Assembly (NCBI GenBank): GCA_027484055.1
Contig: JAIXQH010000057.1
Coordinates: 1-64,000 of the forward strand
Source: Verrucomicrobiaceae bacterium
GTDB taxonomy: Bacteria; Verrucomicrobiota; Verrucomicrobiia; Verrucomicrobiales; Akkermansiaceae
DNA: 64,000 bases
Direction of reading: 5' to 3'
Shown here: piece after piece, positions 6,882 to 28,960 of the stretch
How positions within the stretch are numbered: the stretch's first letter is position 1
Layout of the letters: each line of letters opens with the position of its first letter
Position numbers and translations under genes: made by a program
Notes under the pieces: model-generated
What the model was told of the DNA's origin: nothing
The model's input: only the letters and a program-made list of their open reading frames with translations
Databases searched by the model: none

Positions 6882-8039
6882 TCAGCCGCCACGGCGTAGG
6901 GCTTCGGAGATTTTTAGCTGCATCGCTTGGAAGGCGGGGATGGCTCCGGCGACGAGACCTAGACCGAGGGCGAAGAGGCCGCCTTGGACGAGGGTGTGGG
7001 TGGGCAGCATGAACAGGGGCAGGAGATTCGGGACGGGATTACCGGCGGAGATGATCAACCATGCGGCGGCGAGTCCGCCGCCGCCGCCGATGAGGGCGAT
7101 GAAGCAGGACTCGAGGAGGACCAGCCAGAGCACGAGCCGATTGCTAAAGCCCATGGCCTTGAGCACGCCGAGCTCTTCGGTGCGCTCGCGGACGGACTGG
7201 GCCATGGTGTTACCGGCGACGAGCAGGATGGTGAAAAATACGGCAGCGACCACGGCCATGACGATGGCTCCGATGTCGCCGATCTGCTGGGCGAAGCCTG
7301 CGGCGAAGGCTCCTTCTGGCTCGGTCTTGGTTTCGTAAGGAGAGTTGGCGAAGGTCTCGTCGATCTGGGCGGCGATTTCTGCGGCTTGGTCGGGGTTGGC
7401 GATGCGGATGGTGAACCAGCCGACTTGGCCTTTATCCCTTTGCCGGGCTTCTTCGAAGTAATCGTAGCGGAAAAAGAGATTGGAGGTGTCGGTGGCTTTT
7501 TTCGCCCCTTGGTAAATGCCGACGAGCTCGAACTCCCACTGTGCCTCACCTTTTGGCTGGTCCCAGATGGGGGACTTGATGGGGATGCGGTCGCCGACTT
7601 TCCACTTGAAGCGGTCCGCGGTGGCACGGCCGACGATGGCTCCGGTGCGGGTGGCGAGCCAGGCTTGTTTCTCGGTGTCCTTGATGACGAATTCGGGAAA
7701 CATCAGGAGAAAGGACTCCGGTTCGACCGGCATGTTAGGGAAGAAGTTCTTGGGGTCTTGGTAGATGCCGCCGAACCACGTTTGGTGGACGACGTCGGCC
7801 ACGCCGGGGAGGGTCTTGATGCGGTTTTTGTAAGTCTCGGGGAGGGTCTGAATGAGGGATACCTTGTGGCGGGTGATGAGGCGATCCAGCCCGGCCATGG
7901 TGACGCCACTGCGGAAGGCTTCCTGGATGGCACCGAGGAAGGCAAAGAGGGTGAAGGCGATGAAGATGGAGAGGAGGGTGAGGATGGTGCGGAGTTTTTT
8001 CCGCTTTAATCCTGCCCAGACGAGGGGGAGGAATTTCAT
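6882..8039 (-). CDS. ABC transporter permease, MacB/FtsX type
   Basis: A 385-residue permease with one N-terminal transmembrane helix (about 15-40), a large periplasmic domain (about 45-255) and three C-terminal helices (about 265-375). This is the FtsX/MacB/LolE topology. The conserved segment VRERTEELGVLKAMGFSN before the last helices is typical of the family. It is the last gene of the exporter cluster and its ATG overlaps the stop of the ATPase gene by four bases. Such transporters act by mechanotransmission with a membrane-fusion partner, here encoded two genes upstream, to expel lipids, peptides or antibiotics. The cargo is unknown. Confidence 0.9.
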   Translation of the reverse strand: MKFLPLVWAGLKRKKLRTILTLLSIFIAFTLFAFLGAIQEAFRSGVTMAGLDRLITRHKVSLIQTLPETYKNRIKTLPGVADVVHQTWFGGIYQDPKNFFPNMPVEPESFLLMFPEFVIKDTEKQAWLATRTGAIVGRATADRFKWKVGDRIPIKSPIWDQPKGEAQWEFELVGIYQGAKKATDTSNLFFRYDYFEEARQRDKGQVGWFTIRIANPDQAAEIAAQIDETFANSPYETKTEPEGAFAAGFAQQIGDIGAIVMAVVAAVFFTILLVAGNTMAQSVRERTEELGVLKAMGFSNRLVLWLVLLESCFIALIGGGGGLAAAWLIISAGNPVPNLLPLFMLPTHTLVQGGLFALGLGLVAGAIPAFQAMQLKISEALRRGG

Positions 8040-8746
8040 GGGGCGGTGGGGTCAGCCGGGGTGTCGGTGAGTTGGCCCTTGTCGAGGTGGACGGTGCGGC
8101 TGGCGCGGGCGGAGGCGTGGGGATCGTGGGTGACCATGATGATGGTCTTGCCGTGATCTCGGTTGAGGGACTGGAGGAGGGTGAGGATTTCGTCGCCAGA
8201 CTTGCGGTCGAGGTCGCCGGTGGGTTCGTCACAAAGGAGGACGGTGGGGTCGGTGACGATGGCGCGGGCGATGCCGACGCGCTGCTGTTCACCACCGGAA
8301 AGGGTGCGGGGGAAGGCTTTGGCGCGGTGGCTGAGGCCTACGGCAGCGAGGGCGGCGGCGACGTGTTGGCGGCGCTCGGCCTTGTTGAGGGAGGTGAGGA
8401 GGAGAGGTAGCTCGACATTTCGCTCGGCGGTGAGGGCGGGGAGTAGGTTGTAAAATTGGAAAACGAAGCCGATGTGGCGGGCCCGCCAGGCGGCGAGCTG
8501 GCGGTCTGAGAGTTGATCGACGCGGTCCGGGCCGATCTGGACGCTGCCGGTGGTGGGCCGGTCGAGTCCGCCGATGAGGTTCAGCAGAGTGGACTTGCCG
8601 GAGCCAGAAGGGCCCATGAGGGCGAGAAATTCCGCCTCTTTTACATCGAGATGGAGTTGGTCGAGCACGTGGATCTCTTGCGAGCCGCGCTTGAAGGTTT
8701 TGGTGACGGAGTCAACGTGGACGAGGGTAGCGGGAGTGGTGCTCAT
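8036..8746 (-). CDS. ABC transporter ATP-binding protein, LolD/MacB type
   Basis: A 236-residue nucleotide-binding protein. It has Walker A GPSGSGKST (45-53), a Q-loop in FVFQFYNLLP, signature LSGGEQQR (149-156), Walker B VLLCDEPT (169-176) and H-loop THD. The sequence is of the LolD/MacB/FtsE class that pairs with FtsX-like permeases. Both ends overlap their neighbours by four bases, so translation of membrane-fusion protein, ATPase and permease is almost certainly coupled. Confidence 0.93.
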   Translation of the reverse strand: MSTTPATLVHVDSVTKTFKRGSQEIHVLDQLHLDVKEAEFLALMGPSGSGKSTLLNLIGGLDRPTTGSVQIGPDRVDQLSDRQLAAWRARHIGFVFQFYNLLPALTAERNVELPLLLTSLNKAERRQHVAAALAAVGLSHRAKAFPRTLSGGEQQRVGIARAIVTDPTVLLCDEPTGDLDRKSGDEILTLLQSLNRDHGKTIIMVTHDPHASARASRTVHLDKGQLTDTPADPTAP

Positions 8747-9975
8747 CGGGGAGATTTGACGGTGACGGATGCGCCCTCGTGGAGGGTGGCGGGTGGGTTG
8801 AGGATGACCGTCTCACCGGCGGAAAGGCCAGCGGTGAGAGTGACTTGGGAGGCGGAGGAATGGATCAGGGTGATGGCGCGGCGCTCCACGCGGCCGTCCT
8901 TGACGACCCAGGCGATTTCGCGGGTGCCGGATTTCTGGACCGCGGTCTTGGGGATGCTAAGGGAGCGGGTGGGGGTGGGAGATGGGGCGGGTTGGTCACT
9001 GAGGAAGGCGACCTTGACGCCCATCTGAGGAAGGATGCGGGGGTCGAGCTGGTCGAAGGCGACGCGCACTTTCACGGTGGCCTTTTGGCGGTCTGCGGTG
9101 GGGATGATGGTGGTGACTTTGGCGGGGATTTTCCAGTCCGGATAGGCGTCGAGGGTGGCTTCGACGGGTTGCTTGGCTTTGACGCGGTTGATGAAACTTT
9201 CGCCGACATCGACTTCGATTTCCAGCGAGGCCATATCGACAAGGGTGCAGATGCCGGTGCGGGTGAAGCCGCCGGAAGACATGGGCGAGATCATTTCGCC
9301 GGGTTGGGAGTCTTTGGTCGTGACGACGCCGGCGAAGGGTGCGCGGATGAGGGTGTCGTCGAGTTGCTGGGTCCAGTCCTCGACTTGGCGCTGGGCGACG
9401 AGGATGTCGGCTTGTTGGCGGGCAAGTTTGGCGGTTTGCGCGAGGGAGTCGGCCTCGGCCTTTGCGACTTCGCTACGGCTGACGGCGCGGGGCGAGTTGA
9501 TGGCGGAGAGGCGGTCCAGCTCGGCTTGGGTGTAGTTCACCATGGGTTGGGTTTCCGCGAGGTTGAGCTGGGCGGAGGCGAGCTGGGCTTGGGCGAGGCG
9601 GAGGCCAGCGGTGACGTTTGAGTCATCGAGGCGGGCGAGGAGTTGGCCTTTTCCGACGGACATGCCTTCTTCGACAAGGATTTCTGAGACTTTTCCGGTG
9701 ACCTTGGAAGAGACGGTGGCTTCGAGGCGGGTGGTCACGTAGCCGGAAGCGTTGAGAAGTGTGCGGTCAGCAGCGCCGGAAGCGGTGGACTGGAGGGTGA
9801 CTTCTGCGGTCTGGACGATAATGCGCTGAGCGCGAAGGATGAACCAAGCCGCACCTGCGGCGGCTAGCAGAAGTAGCAGGACCCATAGCCACCACGGGCG
9901 TCTGGGGCTGGACTTCGTGTCCAATGGAGCGCGGTGAATGCGGAGAGCGTCGAGACTTGGGGGAGGTGCGTCCAT
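8743..9975 (-). CDS. Periplasmic membrane-fusion protein (HlyD/MacA family)
   Basis: The open frame extends far upstream, but the recognisable protein starts at the ATG at 9975, giving 410 residues. A cytoplasmic arginine-rich start is followed by one transmembrane helix (about 28-47). Then come the first half of a lipoyl-like domain (ATVSSKVTGKVSEILVEEG, near 80-105), a coiled-coil hairpin (about 120-195), the second lipoyl half (IRAPFAGVVTTK) and a beta-barrel domain. It bridges the ABC permease to an outer-membrane channel. No TolC-like gene is in the window. The start lies 38 bases after the stop of the GH1 gene, so it is probably co-transcribed with it. Confidence 0.9.
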   Translation of the reverse strand: MDAPPPSLDALRIHRAPLDTKSSPRRPWWLWVLLLLLAAAGAAWFILRAQRIIVQTAEVTLQSTASGAADRTLLNASGYVTTRLEATVSSKVTGKVSEILVEEGMSVGKGQLLARLDDSNVTAGLRLAQAQLASAQLNLAETQPMVNYTQAELDRLSAINSPRAVSRSEVAKAEADSLAQTAKLARQQADILVAQRQVEDWTQQLDDTLIRAPFAGVVTTKDSQPGEMISPMSSGGFTRTGICTLVDMASLEIEVDVGESFINRVKAKQPVEATLDAYPDWKIPAKVTTIIPTADRQKATVKVRVAFDQLDPRILPQMGVKVAFLSDQPAPSPTPTRSLSIPKTAVQKSGTREIAWVVKDGRVERRAITLIHSSASQVTLTAGLSAGETVILNPPATLHEGASVTVKSPR

Positions 9976-10013: not shown

Positions 10014-12134
10014 TCAAGAACTCGCTGCGCGGATGATCTCGCGGTAAGTCTCGACCTCGGCGGTGGGGATGCGCTGGAGGGTGGGGTCTTTGTCCAAATC
10101 GACAAAATAGAGGCCGAAGTCGGTGTTCGGGTCGAAAGGGTGGCCCCACTCGCGGTTGGAGGTGATGGACCAGAAGTTGTAGCCTTTGACGGGGACTCCG
10201 TGGAGGAGGGCGCGCTCGACCTCGGCGATGTGGGAGCGGAGGTAGTCGCTGCGAGAGACTCCATTGGCGTTCGGGACGCTGCCGTTTTCCACGATGAAAA
10301 GCTCTTGCTCCGGGAACCAGCGGTGGAAGCGGCGCAGGGCGTGGTAGAGCCCTTTCGGCCAGACGGGGGCTTTGAGAAATCGCCCGTGTGCGGCGTCTTC
10401 TAGGGAGCGGAAGCGCCCGAGTTTCCAGGTGGGAAGTCCCCAGTAATAGTCGAGACCGACGAAATCTTGTGCGCCGACGGCTTCGGCTGGACAGAGCTCT
10501 TCCGGGAGGCGGCCTGATGTGCCGAGATACCACCAGTTGGCATTGGCAATCAGAGTGGTGGTGCCCCAAAAGCGCCATGCCCAGTTGAGCCAGCCGGAGC
10601 GGGTTTCTAGCACTTTAAGGCGGAAAGTCGGGGCGATCGGGACAATTTCTAGGCAGCTGGCATCGCCGAAAATTTCCTGGGTGATGAGCTGGGCGAGTTC
10701 CATTTCCAGTCCTTGGCAACAGGTGTCCTGTGCCATCCCTGGGGCGTCGGAGCGGATGCCGATGCGGATTTTCCCCCGGCGGCGGATCCGCCGCATGTCG
10801 CGACCTTCGGGCAGGCTGGGGTGGGCTTGGTCGGCACCGGCGAAGACTTCTTGAAGAGAAATCGGGCGCTTGGCCTCCTTGGCAGCTGGACCGGCGGGAG
10901 GGATCTCGGATTGGAAGGCGGCGATGGCGGAATTCACCCGCTCCAGTAACTGCCAATGCCCGTGTGGTGCGACAACGACGTAGGCTTCGTCGCTGAAGCC
11001 GGATGCGAGTAAACGCAGGTCGCTGGCATGGTCGATGCCTTGGGAGATGAGGAAAAGAGCGTCGCCATAGACAGCGTCCACGAGACCATTTCGCAAGGCT
11101 TGGCGGGCGTCGTCGTAGTTGGCGAATAGGGTCTTACGGCAGGATTTGGGCAGGTCGCGGAGCCAGGAGGTCGGCTGATTTCCAATGCCGATGACGCCGA
11201 TGTTTTTCTGCTGAAGTGAGTCCACCCCCTCGCCTTGGAAATCGCGTTTTACGAGAATGGCTTTACTGGTGCGGAGGTATGGATCGCTGATTTCAAAGCG
11301 CGTCTGCTCGTCAGCGGTCACCCCGCCGATGACGAGATCCACGTCGCCTTTTTCAGAAACGAGAGCGCCGCTGGTGGTGAATTTGAACAAGGCTTCTGAA
11401 AGCCCGCGGTGACAGGCGCCGAAGTCCATGATCATTTGCAACCAGGTGGGAAAGCCGGTGACGAGCGGATTTACCCCGACTTTCGCGCCAGAATGATGGC
11501 TCTGGATCGCGACCCGCGCCCGGGCGTGGGCGAGGAAAAGGCTGGGAATGAGCTTGCCCACGGCTTCGGCCTCTGCCTCGACGTCTGAGCCGCGGGGGAG
11601 GCCGGGCGGCATGTAGTAGCGGCTCTGCCACCAGGGCTTAATGAAGCCGAAGGTCAGCTGGCTGGGTTCATTGAAAGTGATCCAGTAGTCCACCACGTCG
11701 CCCATTGCCACGGCCACGCGGTCGGCATACCTAGCGAAAAGGTCGGGAAATTTCTCACCGATCATCCCCCCGCAATCCCGCTCCAGCCAGACTGGCCAGA
11801 CGAAATGGTGCAGTGTGAGCATGACTTTCATGCCGTGGCTGCGGATGCACTCGGCGATTTCCCGGTAGTGGGCGAGGCTTGCGTCATCGAAGTGGCCCTC
11901 CGTGGGCTCGACACGCGCCCAAGCGATCGAGAAGCGAAACAATTGGCAGCCCAGCGCGGCGGCTGCGGAAATGTCCTCCGCGTAGCGATGGGTGAAATCC
12001 GTTGCCTGCCCGCGCGCGGTGAGTCCTTGGCTACGTTCCCATAGATCCCAAACGTCCTCACGGGTCGGATCATGCGCCTCGACCTGATGATCGGCATTCG
12101 CCGTGCCGAATAAAAACCCTTTGGGAAAAGCCAT
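10014..12134 (-). CDS. GH1 beta-glycosidase with inserted, apparently permuted SBP_bac_3 domain
   Basis: The start at ATG 12134 is set by a strong Shine-Dalgarno, AAAGGAGG, six bases upstream; a GTG 18 bases earlier is less likely. The protein has 706 residues. Residues 1-240 are the first part of a family 1 glycoside hydrolase: FPKGFLFGTANADHQVEA, TLHHFVWP, and the acid/base Glu156 in TFNEP. Residues about 515-706 are the second part, with the nucleophile Glu616 in VENG and late motifs GYNFWSI and FGLYFVD. Without the insert the GH1 portion is about 436 residues, the normal size. Residues about 245-512 are a family 3 solute-binding domain with its halves reversed. GDVDLVIGGVTADEQTRF and the rest of the C-terminal part come first (about 262-410). 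A charged linker follows, then the normal N-terminal part GKIRIGIRSDAPGM to FRLKVLE (about 454-510). There is no signal peptide. GH1 activity gated by a small ligand is an inference. Confidence 0.85.
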   Translation of the reverse strand: MAFPKGFLFGTANADHQVEAHDPTREDVWDLWERSQGLTARGQATDFTHRYAEDISAAAALGCQLFRFSIAWARVEPTEGHFDDASLAHYREIAECIRSHGMKVMLTLHHFVWPVWLERDCGGMIGEKFPDLFARYADRVAVAMGDVVDYWITFNEPSQLTFGFIKPWWQSRYYMPPGLPRGSDVEAEAEAVGKLIPSLFLAHARARVAIQSHHSGAKVGVNPLVTGFPTWLQMIMDFGACHRGLSEALFKFTTSGALVSEKGDVDLVIGGVTADEQTRFEISDPYLRTSKAILVKRDFQGEGVDSLQQKNIGVIGIGNQPTSWLRDLPKSCRKTLFANYDDARQALRNGLVDAVYGDALFLISQGIDHASDLRLLASGFSDEAYVVVAPHGHWQLLERVNSAIAAFQSEIPPAGPAAKEAKRPISLQEVFAGADQAHPSLPEGRDMRRIRRRGKIRIGIRSDAPGMAQDTCCQGLEMELAQLITQEIFGDASCLEIVPIAPTFRLKVLETRSGWLNWAWRFWGTTTLIANANWWYLGTSGRLPEELCPAEAVGAQDFVGLDYYWGLPTWKLGRFRSLEDAAHGRFLKAPVWPKGLYHALRRFHRWFPEQELFIVENGSVPNANGVSRSDYLRSHIAEVERALLHGVPVKGYNFWSITSNREWGHPFDPNTDFGLYFVDLDKDPTLQRIPTAEVETYREIIRAASS

Positions 12135-12170
12135 GAACGGCCTCCTTTGCACCTGTTGTTGGCGGTCGGG

Positions 12171-13334
12171 TCAAGGCTCTTTCCTCCGACTGGCTTCATT
12201 CGCAGCTATCAGGGCTTGAAGTGCCTGGACCCAGGCGTCGAGCAGGTCGTGCCTCCCTGCGCCTTCGACTTCGAGGGTGAGATCGGGTAATAAATAGGCA
12301 GTGGCAGTCCGGATTTCCCCAATGGGCTCATGGACATGGATCGATTTCACCCGGTTTCCTCGGCCCACTTGGTGCTGGAGCGTGCCATGCTCTACCATGA
12401 TCACGCTGCACTCATGACGATAGATTTCAGGGAAATCTCTGGCGGAAACGTGTTCGATTTCCCGCAGTGCTAGCAGCCGCTGACGGAACTCCGGCAGCGT
12501 CTCATCCCGCGCATGGTGGATGAGAAGTGGCAAGGAATTCATCGTGAATCCTGCCGTGCCAAGCTGCGGAGCTCCTGCGCGGACTTGCTCGACCAGCACG
12601 GTATCCGCTTCTGACCGTGCCAAGAGCGCTTGGCCCCAAGCCCAGAGCACCTGAGTTGCCACGGTTGTCTCGCCGAGTGAGAGCTGGTGGTGAAAATCAT
12701 TTCCCAAGCACCGCCGCGCCCTCGTTGCACATCGATCCAGCGTGGCCTGCGCGCCATCCACTCGCTCCAGCCCAGCAAACTGCCGGTGAAACAAGGCTTC
12801 GGCCGTTTCACGCTCGTGAACGGACGGGCTCTCCCAGCGTGTCATGCGGAGAGGTGCGGTAGGTTCTCCTGCGAGACGATCCAAAAAACTTTGTAAAATC
12901 CGCACGATCGAGCGCCCATCCAGCAGCGCGTGGTGAAAAGTCCATACCAAGCGCCCATCCCTTGGCCAGTAAACGGCACGCCACGGGACCGTTTGGGGAA
13001 GTAAAAGTGGCTGGGCCCGATCGTGTTCCAGCCACTTGTCCCACTCAGCCGGTGGTGTTTGTCTCACCTGCAAGGGAGGAATCACCGCCGCCCAGTCCCA
13101 TGACTCGCACCCGGGAAAGGTAATCTGTAAGGCTTCTGTCTGCGCCACGGTCTGTGCCCATGCAGCGCTTACCTCTGGGGCAGACACTCGGTCTTTCAAG
13201 ATGAGCTCGACCTGCTCCACATGACAGCCCGCCTTGCCAGTGGCGAGCATTGCCCGCTGTAATGGGGCTAAAATCCTTGTTGAGGTCTGCAAGGCTCGCA
13301 TTTTAGCTTGGAAAAACTCCCTTCCAAGCGTCAT
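12171..13334 (-). CDS. Standalone condensation-domain protein (NRPS-like acyltransferase)
   Basis: The chosen start is the ATG at 13334 (387 residues); the frame extends 17 codons further to a TTG. The motif FHHALLDGRS (His134, His135, Asp139) is the HHxxxDG active site of condensation domains and related acyltransferases. Residues near the start (LAPLQRAML) resemble the opening of such domains. There are no adenylation or carrier domains. A free-standing condensation-type enzyme usually joins an acyl or aminoacyl group to an amine or alcohol, as in PapA-like or tailoring acyltransferases. The GH1 gene starts 36 bases downstream on the same strand. The donor and acceptor are unknown. Confidence 0.75.
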   Translation of the reverse strand: MTLGREFFQAKMRALQTSTRILAPLQRAMLATGKAGCHVEQVELILKDRVSAPEVSAAWAQTVAQTEALQITFPGCESWDWAAVIPPLQVRQTPPAEWDKWLEHDRAQPLLLPQTVPWRAVYWPRDGRLVWTFHHALLDGRSIVRILQSFLDRLAGEPTAPLRMTRWESPSVHERETAEALFHRQFAGLERVDGAQATLDRCATRARRCLGNDFHHQLSLGETTVATQVLWAWGQALLARSEADTVLVEQVRAGAPQLGTAGFTMNSLPLLIHHARDETLPEFRQRLLALREIEHVSARDFPEIYRHECSVIMVEHGTLQHQVGRGNRVKSIHVHEPIGEIRTATAYLLPDLTLEVEGAGRHDLLDAWVQALQALIAANEASRRKEP

Positions 13335-13468
13335 TCTCCCTGCACGCGTAATTTTTGATGTAGCAACGTGGATGAAATCTCCCAATCATTGGACTTGCCC
13401 GCGACTCTGTAGCAGGTTGATAGTCATCTGACGTTCGACAGTTCTACCGTCGTATTTCCCGTTAATCC

Positions 13469-19663: not shown

Positions 19664-22600
19664 ATGCGGGATAAGAAAAGCCCGCGAATGCCGATTTGCA
19701 TTAATCAATTAAGCCCCGGGATTTCTTTGGCTGGAATAGAACCTAGCCTCATCGTCCAGATCGTGGCGGCCTTACCCGTTACTGAAAACGTCGTCACGAT
19801 CATCTATCGTCTCCCAGACGGCAACATCCGTGAGCGACTTCTCACCGAAGCGGATTTTCCATCCATCGCGGTAGCAACCATAGAATGTCCGTGGTCTTTC
19901 GATGGCGACGGTGTCGCCTTCAAGCTCGCCGTCGAAGCCAAGCGCATCGACCTCGCCTTCCTCTTCGACCCCATGATGGCGGTCCACACCTCGAATGTGG
20001 ACCCGTTGCCGCATCAGATTGCGGCCGTTTACGAGTCGATGCTTCCCCGCCAGCCACTCCGTTTCGTGCTCGCAGACGACCCCGGCGCGGGAAAAACGAT
20101 CATGGCCGGGCTTTACATTCGCGAGCTGATCATGCGCGCCGATGCCCGCCGCATCCTCATCATTTCTCCCGGCAGTCTGACCGAGCAGTGGCGTGACGAA
20201 CTCTTCGAGAAATTCGGCCTCGAATTTCGAGTTTTCTCCCGCGAGTTGGAGGGCGCAACCGCATCCGGCAATCCTTTCGAGGATCTCGATCAGCTCATCG
20301 TCCGCCTCGACCAGATGGCGCGTAATGAGGACCTTCAGGACAAGCTTTGCGCCGAAAACTGGGACCTCGTCGTCTTCGACGAAGCCCACAAGCTCTCCGC
20401 CCACTTCTTCGGTAACAAGCTGGAGAAAACAGGCCGCTATCGTTTCGCAGAACGCATCGGTGCGCAGACGCGGCATCTGCTGTTGATGACTGCCACGCCG
20501 CACAACGGAAAGGATGAGGACTTCCAACTTTTTCTCGCCCTCCTCGATTCCGACCGCTTCTACGGCAAGTTCCGCGATGGCGTTCACAAGGTTGATACCT
20601 CGGACCTGATGCGCCGCATGGTGAAGGAAGAACTCGTCACCTTCGAAGGCACTCCGCTTTTCCCCGAGCGCAAGGCATACACCGTCAACTACGCGCTCTC
20701 CGATCCCGAGGCCCGGCTCTATCAGGATGTCACCGGCTATGTCAGCACCGAGATGGGTAAGGCCGACCAGCTTGATGGCCAGCGCCGTGGATCTATCGGA
20801 TTCGCGCTCACCTCGTTGCAGCGCCGCCTCGCCTCCAGTCCGGAAGCCATCTATCAATCGCTCCGCCGTCGCCGCGAACGCCTCGATAAAAGGCTTCGCG
20901 AGGAAAAGCTTTCAGCGCGGGCGGGAATGCTGAGTCAGGTGACATACGCACCAGCTCCAGGAAAGGAGGATGACGACGAGGATTTCGATGCGAATGAAAA
21001 CGAAACTCTGGAAGAAACCCTCGTCGATCAAGCGACCGCCTCGCGGACCATCGGCGAACTCGAAATCGAGATTCGCATCCTCGACGGCCTCGTTTCCCAA
21101 GCAGCCGATCTCGTCGCCTCGAAACAGGACCGTAAGTGGGACGAACTCTCCCGCATCCTTCAGGACAATGACCATACCCGCGAAAAGGACGGGCGTTTGC
21201 GCAAGCTCATCGTCTTCACCGAGCACCGGGACACGCTGAATTACCTTCATCGCCAGATCGCCAGTGTCATCGGCAACGATCAGGCCGTCCTCACTATTCA
21301 CGGCGGCACTCATCGCGATGACCGCAAGAAGGCGCAGGAAATGTTCCGCTCCGATCCCGACGTCCGCGTGCTCGTCGCGACCGACGCGGCGGGCGAAGGC
21401 GTGAACCTCCAGAACGCCAATCTCATGGTCAATTACGACCTGCCATGGAACCCTAACCGTCTCGAACAACGCTTCGGCCGCATCCACCGCATCGGCCAGC
21501 GCGAGGTCTGCCATCTCTGGAACCTCGTCGCCAAGGAAACCCGCGAGGGCGATGTCTATCATCGCCTCCTCCGCAAGCTCGAAGTCGAGAGCGATGCGCT
21601 CAAGGGCCGCGTCTTCGACATCCTCGGTGAAGTCTTTGAAAACTCGAAACTCAAGGATCTCCTCGTCGAGGCGATCCGTTATGGCGACCAGCCCGAAATC
21701 CGCGAAAAACTGTGGCGGCAGGTCGATCACGCGCTTGATCACAGCAACCTTCTCCACATCCTGGAAAATCAGTCGCTTGCGCAGGAAACGATGAGTCCGG
21801 CACGGCTCTTCAAGGTGAAGGAGGAAATGGAAAAGGCAGAAGCCCGCCGCCTCCAGCCCTACTTCGTCCGCGCCTTTTTCATGCAGGCATTCGAGACCCT
21901 CGGTGGCTCGATCTATCGGCGCGAATCCGACCGTTGGGAAATCACCCATGTGCCCGCCGTCCTGCGGGATCGCGACCGCCTCATCACCGGTCGCAATCGC
22001 CGCAACCAAGCTCCCGTCCTTCGTCGTTACGAGCGCGTCTGTTTTACCAAGGAAGCCGTCCGTCCGCTCGATCAGCCCGGCGCGCCTGTCGGCGTGATGC
22101 TTCACCCCGGCCACCCGTTGATGCTTGCCGCCAGTGACGTGCTGCTGGAGCAACACGCCAACCTTCTTCGGCAAGGGGCCATTCTCATGGATCCAGCCGA
22201 CGACGGCATCGAGCCATCGCTCCTTTTCCTCCTCACCCATGAGGTGAAATCCGGCGACGGCAGCGTGCTATCGAAGCGCCTCCAGTTCGTCCGTGTCCGG
22301 CCGGATGGCTCGGCGATCTTCGCCGGCTGGGCGCCGCATCTCGATCTCGAACCGCTCGATCCTGCCGACCGTCCCTTGCTCGATGCTCTGTTGAAGGAAA
22401 CGTGGCTTGCCTCCGGACTTGACCAGCGCGCCCTCGAACTCGCCGCCGCCACTCTCGTCCCCGAGCATTTCAAGGAAGTCGCCGAACGCCGCGTCGCCCA
22501 CGTCGAGAAAACCCTCCACGCCGTCCATGAGCGTCTCACCAAGGAAATCGACTTCTGGTCCGACCGTTTCCTCAAACTTCAGGACGATTCAGCGGCGGGC

Positions 22601-23203
22601 AAGGACGTGCGCCTCAATCTCGAAAACGTCCGTCGCACTCTAGGCGATCTCGAACACAGGCTCGAATCCCGAAAAAAGGAACTGCTCGCCATGCGCCACG
22701 TCACATCCGCCACGCCCGTGGTGATGAGCGGGGCACTCGTCGTTCCCGCGGGATTGCTCCTTCAGCAGCGCGGCGAGATCCCGACTAACATGTTCACCGT
22801 CGATGCCGCCGCCCGCGTCCGTATCGAAAAACTCGCGATGGATGCGGTACGCCTAACTGAAGAAGCGAAGGGCCACACCGTCGTCGATGTCTCCGCTCAG
22901 AAATGTGGCTGGGATCTCACCGCCTATCCACCCGCCACCGATGGCAAACTCCCCGTCGCCCGCCACATCGAAGTGAAGGGCAGGGCAAAAGGCGCGACCA
23001 CCGTGACGATCACCCGCAACGAGATCCTCTACGCGCTCAACCAGGCCGACAAATTCGTCCTCGCCATTGTTCTCATCGACGAGAGCGACGCTATAGACGG
23101 CCCCCACTACGTCCGGCGGCCTTTCAATTCAGAGCCGGATGCGGGGCAGGCATCTATCAATTATGAGCTCTCTCACTTCCTCTCCCGCGCCTCGCTCGCC
23201 TGA
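19664..23203 (+). CDS. SNF2-type helicase with C-terminal DUF3883 domain (defence)
   Basis: 1179 residues. Superfamily 2 helicase motifs: Walker [10 protein letters not shown] (about 138-146), DEAH (239-242), motif [18 protein letters not shown], a helicase C-terminal domain (about 500-640, [24 protein letters not shown] and [10 protein letters not shown]). This matches the SNF2/RapA-like helicases of DISARM-type and related systems. The C-terminus has a DUF3883 domain with D1084, E1103 and K1105 in GWDL...HIEVKG, resembling a PD-(D/E)XK nuclease centre. The start at 19664 is uncertain; an ATG at 19688 is also possible. The methylase gene starts five bases after the stop. Confidence 0.88.
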
Positions 23204-23208
23204 TTCTC

Positions 23209-26121
23209 ATGTCCGACTACCCAATCAAATCCCCCCGCAAGCTCATCGAAGTCGCGCTCCCACTCGATGCGATCAATGCAGCTTGTGCTTATGAGAAAAT
23301 GCCCGGCATCGGTGCGCATCCTCGCGGGATTCATCTTTGGTGGGCGAGGCGTCCCTTGGCCGCCGCGCGAGCGGTCGTCTTTGCTCAATTGGTCAATGAT
23401 CCCGGTTACCAGCAGGGATCCGGTTTTAAGTATGGGAGGAACAAGAAAGAAGCCGCTATTGAGAGGAAGCGGCTCTTCAAAATTATTGAAGACCTCGTGC
23501 TGTGGGAGAACACCACCAACGAGGAGGCGCTAGAGTGTGCCCGCGCCGAGATTCGTCGTTCTTGGCGGGAGGTATGCGAACTGAATAAGGATCATCCGCA
23601 GGCCGCCGAACTGTTTAACCCCGACAAACTTCCCGGCCTGCACGATCCCTTCGCAGGTGGAGGCGCGATCCCTCTTGAAGCTCAACGGCTCGGATTGGAG
23701 GCCTTTTCGTCGGATCTCAATCCGGTTGCCGTTCTTATTAACAAGGCGATGATTGAGATTCCGCCTCGCTTTGCGGGCCGTCCGCCCGTCGGACCTGAGG
23801 CCGAGTCGAAGAAGGGCAAGAAGCTCAACTTGCAGACCTCATGGCCCGGTGCCAGCGGTCTGGCGGAGGATATCCGACGCTACGGAGCTTGGATGTGCGC
23901 CGAAGCCGAAAAACGCATCGGTCATCTCTATCCACCTGTAGAAATCACGGCGGAAATGACAAAAGAACGACCCGATATCAAACCGCTCGTCGGCAAAAAG
24001 GTCCCAGTCATCGCGTGGCTTTGGGCGCGGACGGTCAAAAGTCCCAATCCGGCGTTTTCGCATGTGGATGTGCCACTTGTCTCGACTTTTATTCTCTCCA
24101 ACAAGGAAGGGAAGATGTCTTACGTCGAGCCAATCATCGGCGACTGCTGCTACAAGTTTGAGGTTCGCGCTGGCGAGCCAGAAGATCTTAAAGAAGTAAA
24201 GCGAGGTACTTCCGCAAGCAAATGGAATGCATTTCGATGTTTGATGTCGAACACGCCTATCTCCTATGATTATATTCGCTCTGAGGGCATTGCAGGAAGA
24301 ATGGGATGCCGTCTTATGGCAATTGTCGCGGAGGGCACTCGGGGTAGAATTTACGTCTCCCCAACGACTGAAGCGGAGGCCGCAGCTCTCGCGGCAACGC
24401 CATCGTGGAGGCCAGAGCTTAACATTAACCACCATCCGCGTGACATTAAGACACAGATTTATGGACTAACAAAATATGGTGATTTATTTACACCTAGGCA
24501 GCTAGTTGCTTTGACGACGATCAGCGATCTGGTTGTGGAAGCACGGGATCAAGTAAGATCTGACGCCATTAACGCAGGAATGCGAGAAGATCACCAGCTT
24601 GAGAAAGGCGGCGTAGGAGCAATTGCCTACGCTGAGGCCGTCAGTGTATATCTTGCGTTTGTGGCGGACCGCTGTGCTGATTTTTCGAATGCCATGACGC
24701 GGTGGGTGCCTGGCAACCAGAAGGTGATGAACCTATTTGCCAAGCAGGCTATCCCTATGTCTTGGGATTTTCCGGAGGCAGCAATTTTATCTGAAACAGT
24801 TGGCGGTTTGTTGCCTGCGGCAAAATATGTCGCTGACTGTGTCGCAAAACTTTCCCCTTCAGCCATGGGGTACGCCACGCAAAGCGATGCTCAGACACAG
24901 ACGATATCACACCTAAAGTTTATATCAACCGATCCGCCATATTACGACAACATCGGATACGCTGACCTCTCGGATTTCTTTTATCTCTGGCTACGTCGAG
25001 GGCTTCGTTCAGTTTTTCCAGATTTACTTGCCGGAATGGCTGTGCCCAAAGCGGAAGAGCTAGTTGCAACTCCTTATAGGCATGGTGACAAGGACACCGC
25101 TGAAGCATTTTTCCTGAAAGGGATGACTCAGGCTATTTCTAATCTCGCGAGATCGGCTCACCCTGAGGGTCCTGTAACCATCTACTACGCATTTAAGCAA
25201 TCAGAGACAAAAAGCAATTCTCATAAATCCGATACTTCCTCTACTGGTTGGGAAACGTTTTTGACCGCTATCCTTCATGCTGGATTTTCGATTGTTGGCA
25301 CCTGGCCACTGAGAAGTGAGCAGGAGTTCAGGATGAATAGCATGGGAAACAATGCTTTAGCTTCTAGCATCGTCTTGGTTTGTCGCAAACGCGCTACGGA
25401 CGCCCTTAGCATTTCCCGTCGCGAGTTCATCCGCGAATTAAACGCTGTGCTGCCCGAGGCGCTCGACGAGATGACCAAAGGTTCCGGCGACGAACGTTCG
25501 CCCGTGGCGCCAGTGGACCTTTCTCAAGCCATCATCGGGCCGGGCATGGCGGTCTTCTCTAGATACTCCGCCGTGCTGGAGGCCGACGGCTCGGCCATGA
25601 GCGTCCGAACCGCCCTGCAACTCATCAATCGCTTCCTCGCGGAGGACGACTTTGATCCCGATACCCAGTTCTGCCTTCATTGGTTTGAGCATCATGGCTG
25701 GGACGAAGGCCCATTTGGTGATGCCGATACGCTTTCTCGTGCGAAAGCAACCAGTGTCAGCGGTATTTCCGACGCCGGAGTCATCGAAAGCGGTGGTGGC
25801 AAGGTGCGCCTGCTGAAATGGGCCGACTACCCGATTGATTGGGACCCGTCGAAAGACACCCGCAAGCCTGTCTGGGAATCGTTACATCAGCTTATCCGTG
25901 CGTTTCGTCAGGAAGGCGAATCCGGTGCAGGAAAGCTTCTTGCTCATCTCAAGCCGCAGGCCGAGGCCATTCGTCAGCTTTCGTACCGCCTTTACACTCT
26001 CTGCGAACGGCAACGCTGGTCCGACGACGCCCGCTCCTACAACGAACTCATCACCTCGTGGAACTCCATTGAAGAAAGCTCTGCCTCCCATAGTACCCGC
26101 GATCGCGAACTTTTCGACTGA
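23209..26121 (+). CDS. DUF1156 DNA adenine methyltransferase-like protein (defence)
   Basis: 970 residues. It begins with the DUF1156 signature region ([30 protein letters not shown]). The methyl-donor-binding motif [17 protein letters not shown] is at about 146-162. The catalytic motif DPPYYDN is at about 575-581, followed by [18 protein letters not shown] is typical of N6-adenine methyltransferases. The size is far above that of ordinary modification enzymes. In a three-gene operon with a helicase and an ATPase it probably marks host DNA, as in restriction-modification or DISARM-like systems. The target sequence cannot be read from the protein. Confidence 0.9.
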
Positions 26122-26137
26122 ACCATTTCAAACTGCC

Positions 26138-28960
26138 ATGTCCCTCAAACCTTGGAGAGAAATCGCCGTGCCCCATCCCGATGTGTTGGAAGGCACCTTC
26201 TTGCAATCGGAATTCGCTGCCGACATCACCGCCGTGCATTCCGGCAAGGCGACCCGTGAGTATCAGGATGCTGCCGCGTTTTTCGAGCGGACCTTCATCA
26301 CGGAAGGCATGCGCCTGCTGCTCACTTCCGTCGCGAAACGTCTGAACCGCCAAGGCGGCGATCCGGTGATCCAGCTCCAAACCGCCTTCGGGGGTGGTAA
26401 GACCCACACCATGCTGGCGGTCTATCACCTTGCCACCCGCGCGTGCCCTTTGAACGACTTGCCGGGGATTCCGGCTTTGCTTGATCAGGCGGGTTTACTG
26501 GGCGTCCCGCGGGCGAAGATCGCCGTGCTCGACGGCACCGCGCTTTCCCCCGGTCAACCGTGGAAACGGGGCAAGCAAGTGATTCGGACATTATGGGGTG
26601 AACTCGCCTGGCAACTCGGCGGTGAGGAAGGTTTCGCGTTGGTGGCAGAGGCCGATTCCAATGGCACTTCGCCGGGCAAGGAGACGCTGAAACAACTTCT
26701 CGAAAATCATGCTCCGGCAGTGATCCTAATCGATGAATTGGTCGCCTACATCCGGCAGTTTGAAGAAGGGAAATCGCTCAGTGGTGGCACCTACGATAGT
26801 AATTTATCATTCATCCAAGCGCTCACCGAGGCGACAAAACTGGTGCCGGATGCGATGCTGCTCGCTTCGTTGCCTGAGTCCGAGGTGGAAGCCGGCAGCG
26901 GGAAGGGGATTGCCGCGCTCGCGGCAGTGAAGAAGTATTTCGGCAGAGTCCAGGCATTGTGGAAACCGGTCGCAACCGAGGAGGCCTTTGAAATCGTTCG
27001 CCGCCGTTTGTTCGAACCCATCCGCAGTGGAGTTGAGCGCGACCAGGTGTGCCGGGCCTTCGCCTCCGCCTATCAGACGGAAGGCGCCAAGCTTCCCTCG
27101 GAAACGCAGGAAGCGCGTTACTACGACCGCTTGGTTCAGGCCTATCCGATTCACCCCGAAGTATTTGACCGACTCTATGAGGACTGGACCACGCTCGATT
27201 CCTTCCAGCGCACCCGCGGCGTGCTGAAGCTGATGGCTCGCGTGATACATCGTTTATGGAAAGATCAGAACCAGGACCTTCTGATCCTGCCCGCCAGCCT
27301 TCCGCTGTATGACGGTGGCGCACGAAATGAACTGGTAGACTTTCTCCCTCAGGGTTGGGACGCCGTCGTGGAGAAGGACATCGACGGCGAACGCGCCGAA
27401 ACCACCGAACTGGAAGCGAAAGAACCCCGATTCGGAGCCATCCATGCGGCGAAACGGGTGGCACGCACGCTTTTCCTTGGCAGCGCGCCATCATCCGCAT
27501 CCCACAAGCAAGGCAACAAGGGAATCGACCGTGGCAGGATTTTGTTAGGTTGTCTCCAGCCGGGCCAGGCCGCCTCGACCTACGGCGATGCCTTGAACCG
27601 TCTGGCGGATCGCCTGCACTACCTCAACGCCTCAGGCGACAAGAGCGACGATACCACCCGCTTCTGGTTCGACACCCGAGCCAATCTCCGCCGCGAGATG
27701 GAGGACCGGAAAGCCCGCTTCAAGGACGAGACCGACGTGCGCGGAAGAATGGGTGAGGTCGTGAAGAAAATGACGTCCAACATTTCCTGCGTCGATGGCA
27801 CCCACGTCTTCACGCCCCACGCTGATGTCCCCGACGACGGGGCCTTGCGACTGGTAATCCTCGCCCCGGAGAAATTTTACAGCAAACAGGAGGCGAAACT
27901 CGCGTTCGAAGAAGTCGAGACGTTCCTCAAGCAGAACGGCACCAAGCCCCGCTACCGGCAGAACCGCCTCCTCTTTCTGGCTGCCGACCATAGTTCATTA
28001 GGCCGCCTGCGCGATTGCATCCGAGTGGCCCTCGCATGGCGGTCCATCGTGGATGACGTAAAGAACGGCCGCCTCAACATCGACCAGATCCAGATGAAAC
28101 AGGCGGAGAAAGAAGCATCCACCGCCGAAGACGTGCTGCCCCGCGCCGCCCGCGAGTGTTTCAAGTGGCTACTCTGCCCGATGATGCTTTCGGCCACCGA
28201 TACCAAAGCTGAAATCGAGCCGTTCGCGCTCAACACCGCCGGTTTCGCCTGCGGATCAGAGATCGAGCGCGTTTGCCAGGAGAACGAACTTGCCATTGCA
28301 GTGTGGTCCCCCGTTCATCTGCGGGATACCGTGTTGCGGAAACTCTACTGGAAGCCCGACCGAAATGCAGTTCGCGCCCTCGATGTCTGGGAGGACATGC
28401 AGCGTTATCTCTATCTGCCCCGCCTCCGCAGCCGAGCCACCTACGAAAAGACGGTCGCAACAGGTGCCGGTAGTCGGGATTTCTTCGGCACGGCAAACGG
28501 CGAGCATGGCGGAAAGTTCGATGGCTTTCGCTTGGGAGACTCTAACGTCCAATTGGATGATACCCTGCTTTTGATCGAGCCCGCAGCAGCGGCGGCTTAT
28601 GAAGAAGTCCATCGGGCACTGACTCCTGCACCGAAGCCGACGGAACTTTCACCTGAGCCCACGTCATCCCCCAAAGTGGGAGAGCCAACCCCTGCCTATC
28701 CTGCACCACAACCGCAGGCAGCGGTAAAATCCTTCCGGTATTTCTCCGGTACGGCAGAGGTGAACGCCGCCATGGCCAAGATGAAACTCGGTGAACTCGC
28801 CGAGGAAATCATCCGGGTGCTTGCCAACGACCCCACGGCGACCGTGCGTGTTTCCGTTGAAATCGAAGCTGAGTTCCAAGACGGAGCCACCGACTCCACC
28901 CGCCGTGCCGTTTCGGAGAATGCCAAACAGCTTCAGATGAAGCGGGCGGAGTGGTCGTAA
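26138..28960 (+). CDS. DUF499 domain AAA+-like ATPase (defence)
   Basis: The open frame begins earlier, overlapping the methylase, but the natural start is the ATG at 26138, 16 bases after the methylase stop: 940 residues. DUF499 features are clear: the opening [19 protein letters not shown], Walker A in [11 protein letters not shown] (about 81-91), and Walker B VILIDEL (about 195-201). Long helical regions follow, then a C-terminal part (about 870-940) with a small alpha/beta domain after a proline-rich linker. DUF499 proteins occur with DUF1156 methylases and helicases in putative antiviral loci. Its exact role is unknown. Confidence 0.9.

Follow-up and report, generated by a model that had tools for sequence, protein, structure and literature searches.

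A family 1 glycosidase of Akkermansiaceae bearing an inlaid, circularly permuted solute-binding domain

The locus described here raises the question of how one open frame can encode both a glycoside hydrolase and a solute-binding domain, and what the second could do for the first. Within the window (the whole 64,000-nucleotide stretch of DNA analysed, from a 70-contig assembly), the gene occupies 10014..12134 on the minus strand and encodes 706 amino acids, followed by a stop. As an earlier preliminary description held, the frame is continuous: it runs without interruption from an ATG at 12134 to the stop at 10014-10016. The list of open reading frames begins the same frame at a GTG at 12152, which gives an ORF of 712 residues. 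A Shine-Dalgarno-like sequence, AAAGGAGG (12141..12148, minus strand), lies 6 nt before the ATG; a motif of this kind was found in only 11 of 36 family members, by a loose pattern and with the true start unsure in several.

The two ends of the protein belong to a GH1 enzyme. PF00232 matches the window protein in two stretches (E 3.7e-53), and also matches all 27 rows of our alignment A1. The N-terminal half (residues 1-228; 11451..12134, minus strand) contributes barrel strands 1-5 and the acid/base E156 (codon 11667-11669) in the motif 154-FNEP-157. The C-terminal half (residues 512-706; 10017..10601, minus strand) contributes a helix at 515-531, barrel strands 6-8, the nucleophile E616 (codon 10287-10289) in 614-IVENG-618, and EW at 662-663. 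Both catalytic glutamates, already recognised in the preliminary description, are invariant in the 27 A1 rows, and so are the other members of the set of ten GH1 active-site positions checked (Q17, H110, N155, E156, Y563, Y564, E616, W655, E662 and W663; the set draws in part on passages of PMC12369401). At F111 the window protein reads HF where four other GH1 enzymes of the order read HW, and at D562 it reads DYY where these mostly have NYY or NIY (alignment); 4r27 likewise has HF at the F111 position. These differences may reflect an unusual substrate preference. In a tree the host enzymes form a single clade (SH-aLRT 100) on a long branch away from the same four GH1s of the order. Inspection by eye of the translated upstream regions of 36 members showed no conserved leader peptide, so the protein is probably cytosolic, in line with the location first proposed. 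We infer from the sequence that it is a retaining beta-glycosidase of the cytosol.

Between the two halves lie two leading helices (residues 229-257, WLQMIMDFGACHRGLSEALFKF; 11364..11450, minus strand; placed by model and alignment) and a domain that spans residues 258-511 (some 255 in all, of which about 412-446 form a variable linker). In the 712-residue ORF, residues ~260-415 are matched by SBP-type NCBIfam models (PRK11260, E 1.3e-10). The parts of this domain are not in the canonical N-to-C order of SBP_bac_3. The C-terminal part is placed first (residues 258-411; 10902..11363, minus strand), and comprises the lobe 1 strand GDVDLVIGG, lobe 2 (approximately residues 287-384; 10983..11276, minus strand) and the return to lobe 1. 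The linker follows (approximately residues 412-446; 10797..10901, minus strand), joining the original C-terminus to the original N-terminus, with low pLDDT and the highest pN. The N-terminal part comes last (residues 447-511, RRIRRRGKIRIGIRSDAPG to RLKVLE; 10602..10796, minus strand; alignment and profile). The opening of the SBP, and with it the new ends, falls where the second lobe-1 helix (RLKVLE) finishes, just ahead of strand GDVDLV. The domain also departs from the usual state of SBP_bac_3 as a separate, exported protein, being inlaid in GH1 and showing no conserved leader by eye.

The permutation was examined against a profile of six native SBPs (one from the same genome, three from the genus and two from the order). 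As found, the insert matches this profile in two swapped blocks, query 7-155 on template 81-232 (148 columns) and query 208-257 on 24-73, the second being insignificant taken alone. When reordered, it matches in a single collinear block of 202 columns, with a score of 109.7 versus 95.3 as found. Reordering likewise raises the match to PF00497 from 24.0 bits (model 55-117), under the cut-off of 26.4, to 27.4 bits over model positions 1-117 of 132, above it; among whole A1 proteins only 6 of 27 match PF00497 at E 1e-3 or better, and the window protein is not one of these. The reordered insert is collinear with the solved SBP 2v25 (query 3-203 on residues 32-232, E 3.3e-8), and its best E value, 2.7e-14, is to AncQR 4zv1, covering query 71-217 only. 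The preliminary description had proposed SBP_bac_3-like sequence in reversed order between the GH1 glutamates, to be checked by comparison with PF00497 and PF00232. These profile matches and alignments to solved and native SBPs bear out both the kinship and the reversal, and we regard the architecture itself, a GH1 enzyme with an inlaid permuted SBP_bac_3 domain, as very nearly certain.

Alignment with four uninserted GH1s (three of the genus, one of the order) places the insert in the connection between strand 5 and helix 5, which in such barrels is on the active-site face. In the AlphaFold model of the window protein (mean pLDDT 76.8, pTM 0.72), strand 5 ends at 227 and is followed by helices 230-240 and 243-254, the SBP, helix 515-531 and strand 6 at 558-566. 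The whole model is a GH1-type (beta/alpha)8 barrel (best match 1uyq, Z 37.0, rmsd 3.5, 389 residues aligned), and the first and last residues aligned to solved GH1 enzymes are 1 and 706, so that the two halves make up the whole barrel. Of the two folds expected from the preliminary description, the barrel is predicted outright; for the insert, strands and helices follow the order expected of a permuted SBP and the secondary structure of both lobes is present, in parts of the model that are of modest confidence. The best 50 matches listed in each whole-model fold search were GH1-type chains; as this one domain filled them, the lists say nothing about the fold of the insert. The GH1 barrel is also kept in the model of a short form without lobe 2 (best match 1uyq, Z 36.0, rmsd 3.0, 378 aligned; mean pLDDT 69.9). 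Passages on a GH1 enzyme from S. griseus describe a Gln229 that hydrogen-bonds the +1 sugar and an Asn228 that contacts the same sugar via water (PMC12369401). These residues probably correspond to the end of strand 5 in the window protein, and the strand-5/helix-5 connection would accordingly sit on the aglycone (+1) side of the pocket.

The protein recurs in Akkermansiaceae. By profile search, 41 of 260 genomes of this bacterial family, the window's own counted, carry the full or nearly full protein (in G024 it is cut by a contig end and in G133 it has one internal stop), and homologs sharing the insertion, which the preliminary description had left to be sought, are thus at hand. The same search found three genomes in which lobe 2 is missing (G166, G271, G273), plus several fragments. 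A scan of named-species genomes, which used a single protein as query and so reaches only near relatives, gave 34 loci, all Verrucomicrobiota judging by their titles; the carriers include Luteolibacter marinus, Haloferula sp. BvORR071, Haloferula luteola, Roseibacillus persicicus and R. ishigakijimensis. No full-length protein was found outside the bacterial family among 386 genomes of the order (E up to 1e-20) and 387 of the phylum (E up to 1e-40), in samples that overlap with each other and with the family sample, and with at most two candidates scored per genome; the matches beyond the family in the order sample are N-terminal GH1 pieces. Viral contigs gave three pattern matches, none of them a relative. 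A frame or assembly artefact fusing two genes, a danger foreseen at the outset, can be dismissed as extremely improbable, given the identical architecture in 27 full-length aligned rows, in named isolates and in five single-contig genomes among the 41 (G004, G120, G121, G138, G169). The gene encodes a conserved Akkermansiaceae GH1 enzyme that bears a permuted family-3 SBP between barrel strand 5 and helix 5.

Some loci did not enter the alignments. L037 (internal stop) and L050, L059, L061 and L062 (fragments or stops) were dropped from the 30-row alignment, and L045, L047 and L048 additionally from A1; 13 duplicates were also removed. Two of the dropped loci are probably in decay, L037 (3066-5195) with one stop inside the match and L062 (61-1072) with three, and suggest that some copies are decaying. 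An isolated 86-residue remnant near 6425 in L029 is probably a decaying copy as well.

Within the insert the two lobes have had different histories. Lobe 2 is deleted in 3 of the 30 aligned rows (L060, L063, L064), with lobe 1 still present in permuted order; the short insert scores 38.2 against native SBPs when reordered versus 33.6 as found, both weak scores. Parsimony over the 36 rows of the tree requires two changes, and since SBPs have two lobes we read these as at least two losses, the root order within the family being unresolved. As lobe 1 was kept through these losses, it looks structurally required, and lobe 2 optional across the family. Most members seen nevertheless maintain lobe 2. 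Its motif GNQP, which by sequence would line the cleft, has each of G318, N319, Q320 and P321 in 24 of 27 full-length rows; R326 and D327 are found in 25 of 27 and D358 in all 27. GNQP is degenerate in L056 and L065, most of it is missing in L041, and both Roseibacillus rows have lost the GNQP and RD motifs. Lobe-2 deletion in three homologs and GNQP loss in Roseibacillus count against a sensor role common to the whole family.

Among the 25 closest of 209 pairs, dN/dS is 0.03-0.52 in lobe 1, 0-0.48 in lobe 2, 0.06-0.19 in GH1 and up to 1.21 in the linker: both lobes are under purifying selection, and the linker is much less so. The SBP residues change faster than those of GH1: mean pN is 0.254 and 0.281 for the former and 0.156 for the latter. 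For the leading helices (229-257), mean pN is 0.494 between the two Roseibacillus rows and the other full-length rows, and 0.156 over all full-length pairs. At what we take to be the position of the arginine that grips the amino-acid carboxylate in family-3 SBPs, there is no conserved arginine; the nearest, R279, is present in 18 of 27 full-length rows, and the SBP L002 of the same genome reads ATEER there. The amino-acid ligand suggested in the preliminary description is therefore not supported.

Neighbouring genes were also compared: 12 from the window were searched for in a set of 44 loci in which some genomes appear twice. No neighbour cluster was common to more than 6 of 35 loci. The gene immediately upstream, likewise on the minus strand (12171-13385), is acyltransferase-like, stand-alone and condensation/wax-ester-synthase-like; its product matches PF00668 (E 1.9e-5) and PF03007 (E 5e-4), both under cut-off. 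The search of the 44 loci found one relative of it (41%), in L033, and there too it is just upstream. A close match to a response regulator of the window (65%) was likewise confined to L033, with weaker ones (27%) in L040 and L065. Downstream of the gene are a MacB-like permease, an ABC ATPase and a HlyD-type adaptor (6882-9975, minus strand). L042 and L044 encode related ABC ATPases (54-56%) at a distance of 8-9 kb, L044 together with a 25% permease, and there are further matches to an ABC ATPase in L046 and to HlyD (26%) in L051; none of these is adjacent to the gene. L056 has a 29% hydrolase match. Because the neighbours are not conserved across loci, the context yields no ligand or substrate, and we rejected it as a guide to function. 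Elsewhere the window contains a three-gene Hma-type anti-phage defence locus (19664-28960, plus strand), encoding a helicase (HmaA model, 1959.5 bits), an adenine methylase (HmaB, 1656.3) and an ATPase with DUF499 (HmaC, 1421.5).

What, then, might the inlaid domain do? For the main clade (Luteolibacter, Haloferula and relatives), the best single mechanism is ligand gating of a cytosolic glycosidase, which we favour tentatively and at somewhat below an even chance. A small molecule would bring lobes 1 and 2 of the clamp together, and this closure would shift the strand-5/helix-5 connection on the pocket's aglycone (+1) side, making activity or specificity dependent on the ligand. The clamp would probably not bind that ligand in the way it would an ordinary alpha-amino acid. 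In the lineages that lack lobe 2 and in Roseibacillus, control would have been lost or altered, with lobe 1 left as a structural part. We rate gating highest because a two-lobe clamp with a conserved lobe-2 motif has been maintained on the pocket-side connection, and because such domains control enzymes both in nature (MltF) and by design. It is also consistent with the presence of both domains (a GH1 barrel and the secondary-structure order of a permuted SBP are predicted), with the invariance of all ten GH1 positions checked, with the retention of lobe-2 motif positions in 24-27 of 27 full-length rows and with purifying selection on both lobes. The parts of the literature that bear on it supply a natural precedent in MltF (PMC10746161) and engineered insertions under ligand control (PMC4896006, PMC6335823). 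Against gating stand the loss of lobe 2 in 3 of 30 rows and of its motif in two more, with L041 lacking most of GNQP, the faster evolution of the SBP residues and the lack of a conserved operon that points to a ligand. The modest confidence of the insert model, the unconserved carboxylate arginine and the F111 and D562 differences from other GH1s of the order are further counter-points.

Two other accounts are close rivals. In the first, the insert binds nothing and is a structural or oligomerisation scaffold, or an eroding vestige, in an otherwise ordinary GH1 enzyme. This is favoured by the repeated loss of lobe 2 while lobe 1 stays, and the carboxylate arginine and the higher rate of change in the SBP part point the same way. 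An eroding passenger would, however, be expected to drift more freely than a lobe 2 that is under purifying selection in full-length rows and keeps GNQP in 24 of 27 and RD in 25 of 27, and we consider this account doubtful. In the second, the permuted clamp is a lid for substrate recognition, which would bind the aglycone, or else the remainder of the substrate, and present it to the GH1 pocket, with no separate allostery. The position of the insertion after barrel strand 5 would suit such a role, on the aglycone side as judged by an inferred correspondence with the +1 residues described for the related GH1 (in passages of PMC12369401), and the flanking helices (229-257) are strongly clade-divergent, as a specificity element might be. 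Yet half of the cleft, lobe 2, is gone in three homologs that keep all checked GH1 catalytic residues, and SBP_bac_3 domains normally bind small polar molecules; a lid is unlikely, and we place it below the scaffold.

If ligand gating is correct, the family would be a natural counterpart of engineered SBP-enzyme switches, a ligand-gated permuted clamp of periplasmic type in an active-site loop of a cytosolic TIM-barrel glycosidase. We regard this as possible, with less conviction than gating as such. Relatives would then show three states of the switch: an intact presumed pocket motif in most rows of Luteolibacter and Haloferula, a degenerate one in Roseibacillus, and reduction to a single lobe. 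Engineers make allosteric enzymes by circular permutation and domain insertion, often with binding proteins as the sensors, and a natural family of that topology, with one-lobe deletions, would allow the origin, working and decay of such switches to be studied directly. A further implication is that environmental relatives of Akkermansia may use in the cytosol a domain that is ordinarily exported to take up nutrients.

Each part of this protein is already known, as is the use of SBPs as sensors. Searches of open-licence literature yielded no account of a glycoside hydrolase with a circularly permuted solute-binding domain set into it, in agreement with the first impression that no example had been described. 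In the main text of a 2026 domain-insertion survey (PMC13114784), the terms periplasmic, solute-binding and SBP are absent; in the text portions of an Akkermansiaceae glycan-use paper (PMC13174399), the string "GH1" occurs nine times, also catching GH139, GH141 and others, in passages on other families. With GH1 beta-glucosidases (PF00232; 1uyq, 4r27, which is BGL167, and 8kap/9u98, which are S. griseus SGR_2426) the window protein shares the barrel, the NEP and ENG glutamates and the residues of the -1 subsite, but it differs by the inlaid SBP, and its host domain is distant in the tree from four GH1s of the order. With family-3 SBPs (PF00497; 4zv1 AncQR, 5eyf and 2v25, the major cell-binding factor) the insert shares sequence and, after reordering, domain plan; unlike them it is permuted, lies inside an enzyme, shows no leader, does not conserve the carboxylate arginine and can dispense with lobe 2.

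MltF, a lytic transglycosylase, is an envelope enzyme with a catalytic fold unrelated to GH1 and an SBP-like regulatory domain. There, too, such a domain controls a glycan-cleaving enzyme, as is proposed for the window protein, but it is N-terminal and in tandem, neither inlaid nor permuted. Muropeptide binding to this domain turns the enzyme on, according to sections of PMC10746161. Closest in plan are the engineered switches RG13, a permuted beta-lactamase in maltose-binding protein, and XynA-XBP271, a xylanase in xylose-binding protein (as given in parts of PMC6335823 and PMC4896006). In these, as in the window protein, enzyme and binding protein are joined at two points, and by our own comparison RG13 has the same circular connectivity as the window protein when both are read as circles. 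The switches are man-made, with ligand control demonstrated and, in RG13, with the enzyme permuted, whereas the window protein is natural and it is the SBP that is permuted.
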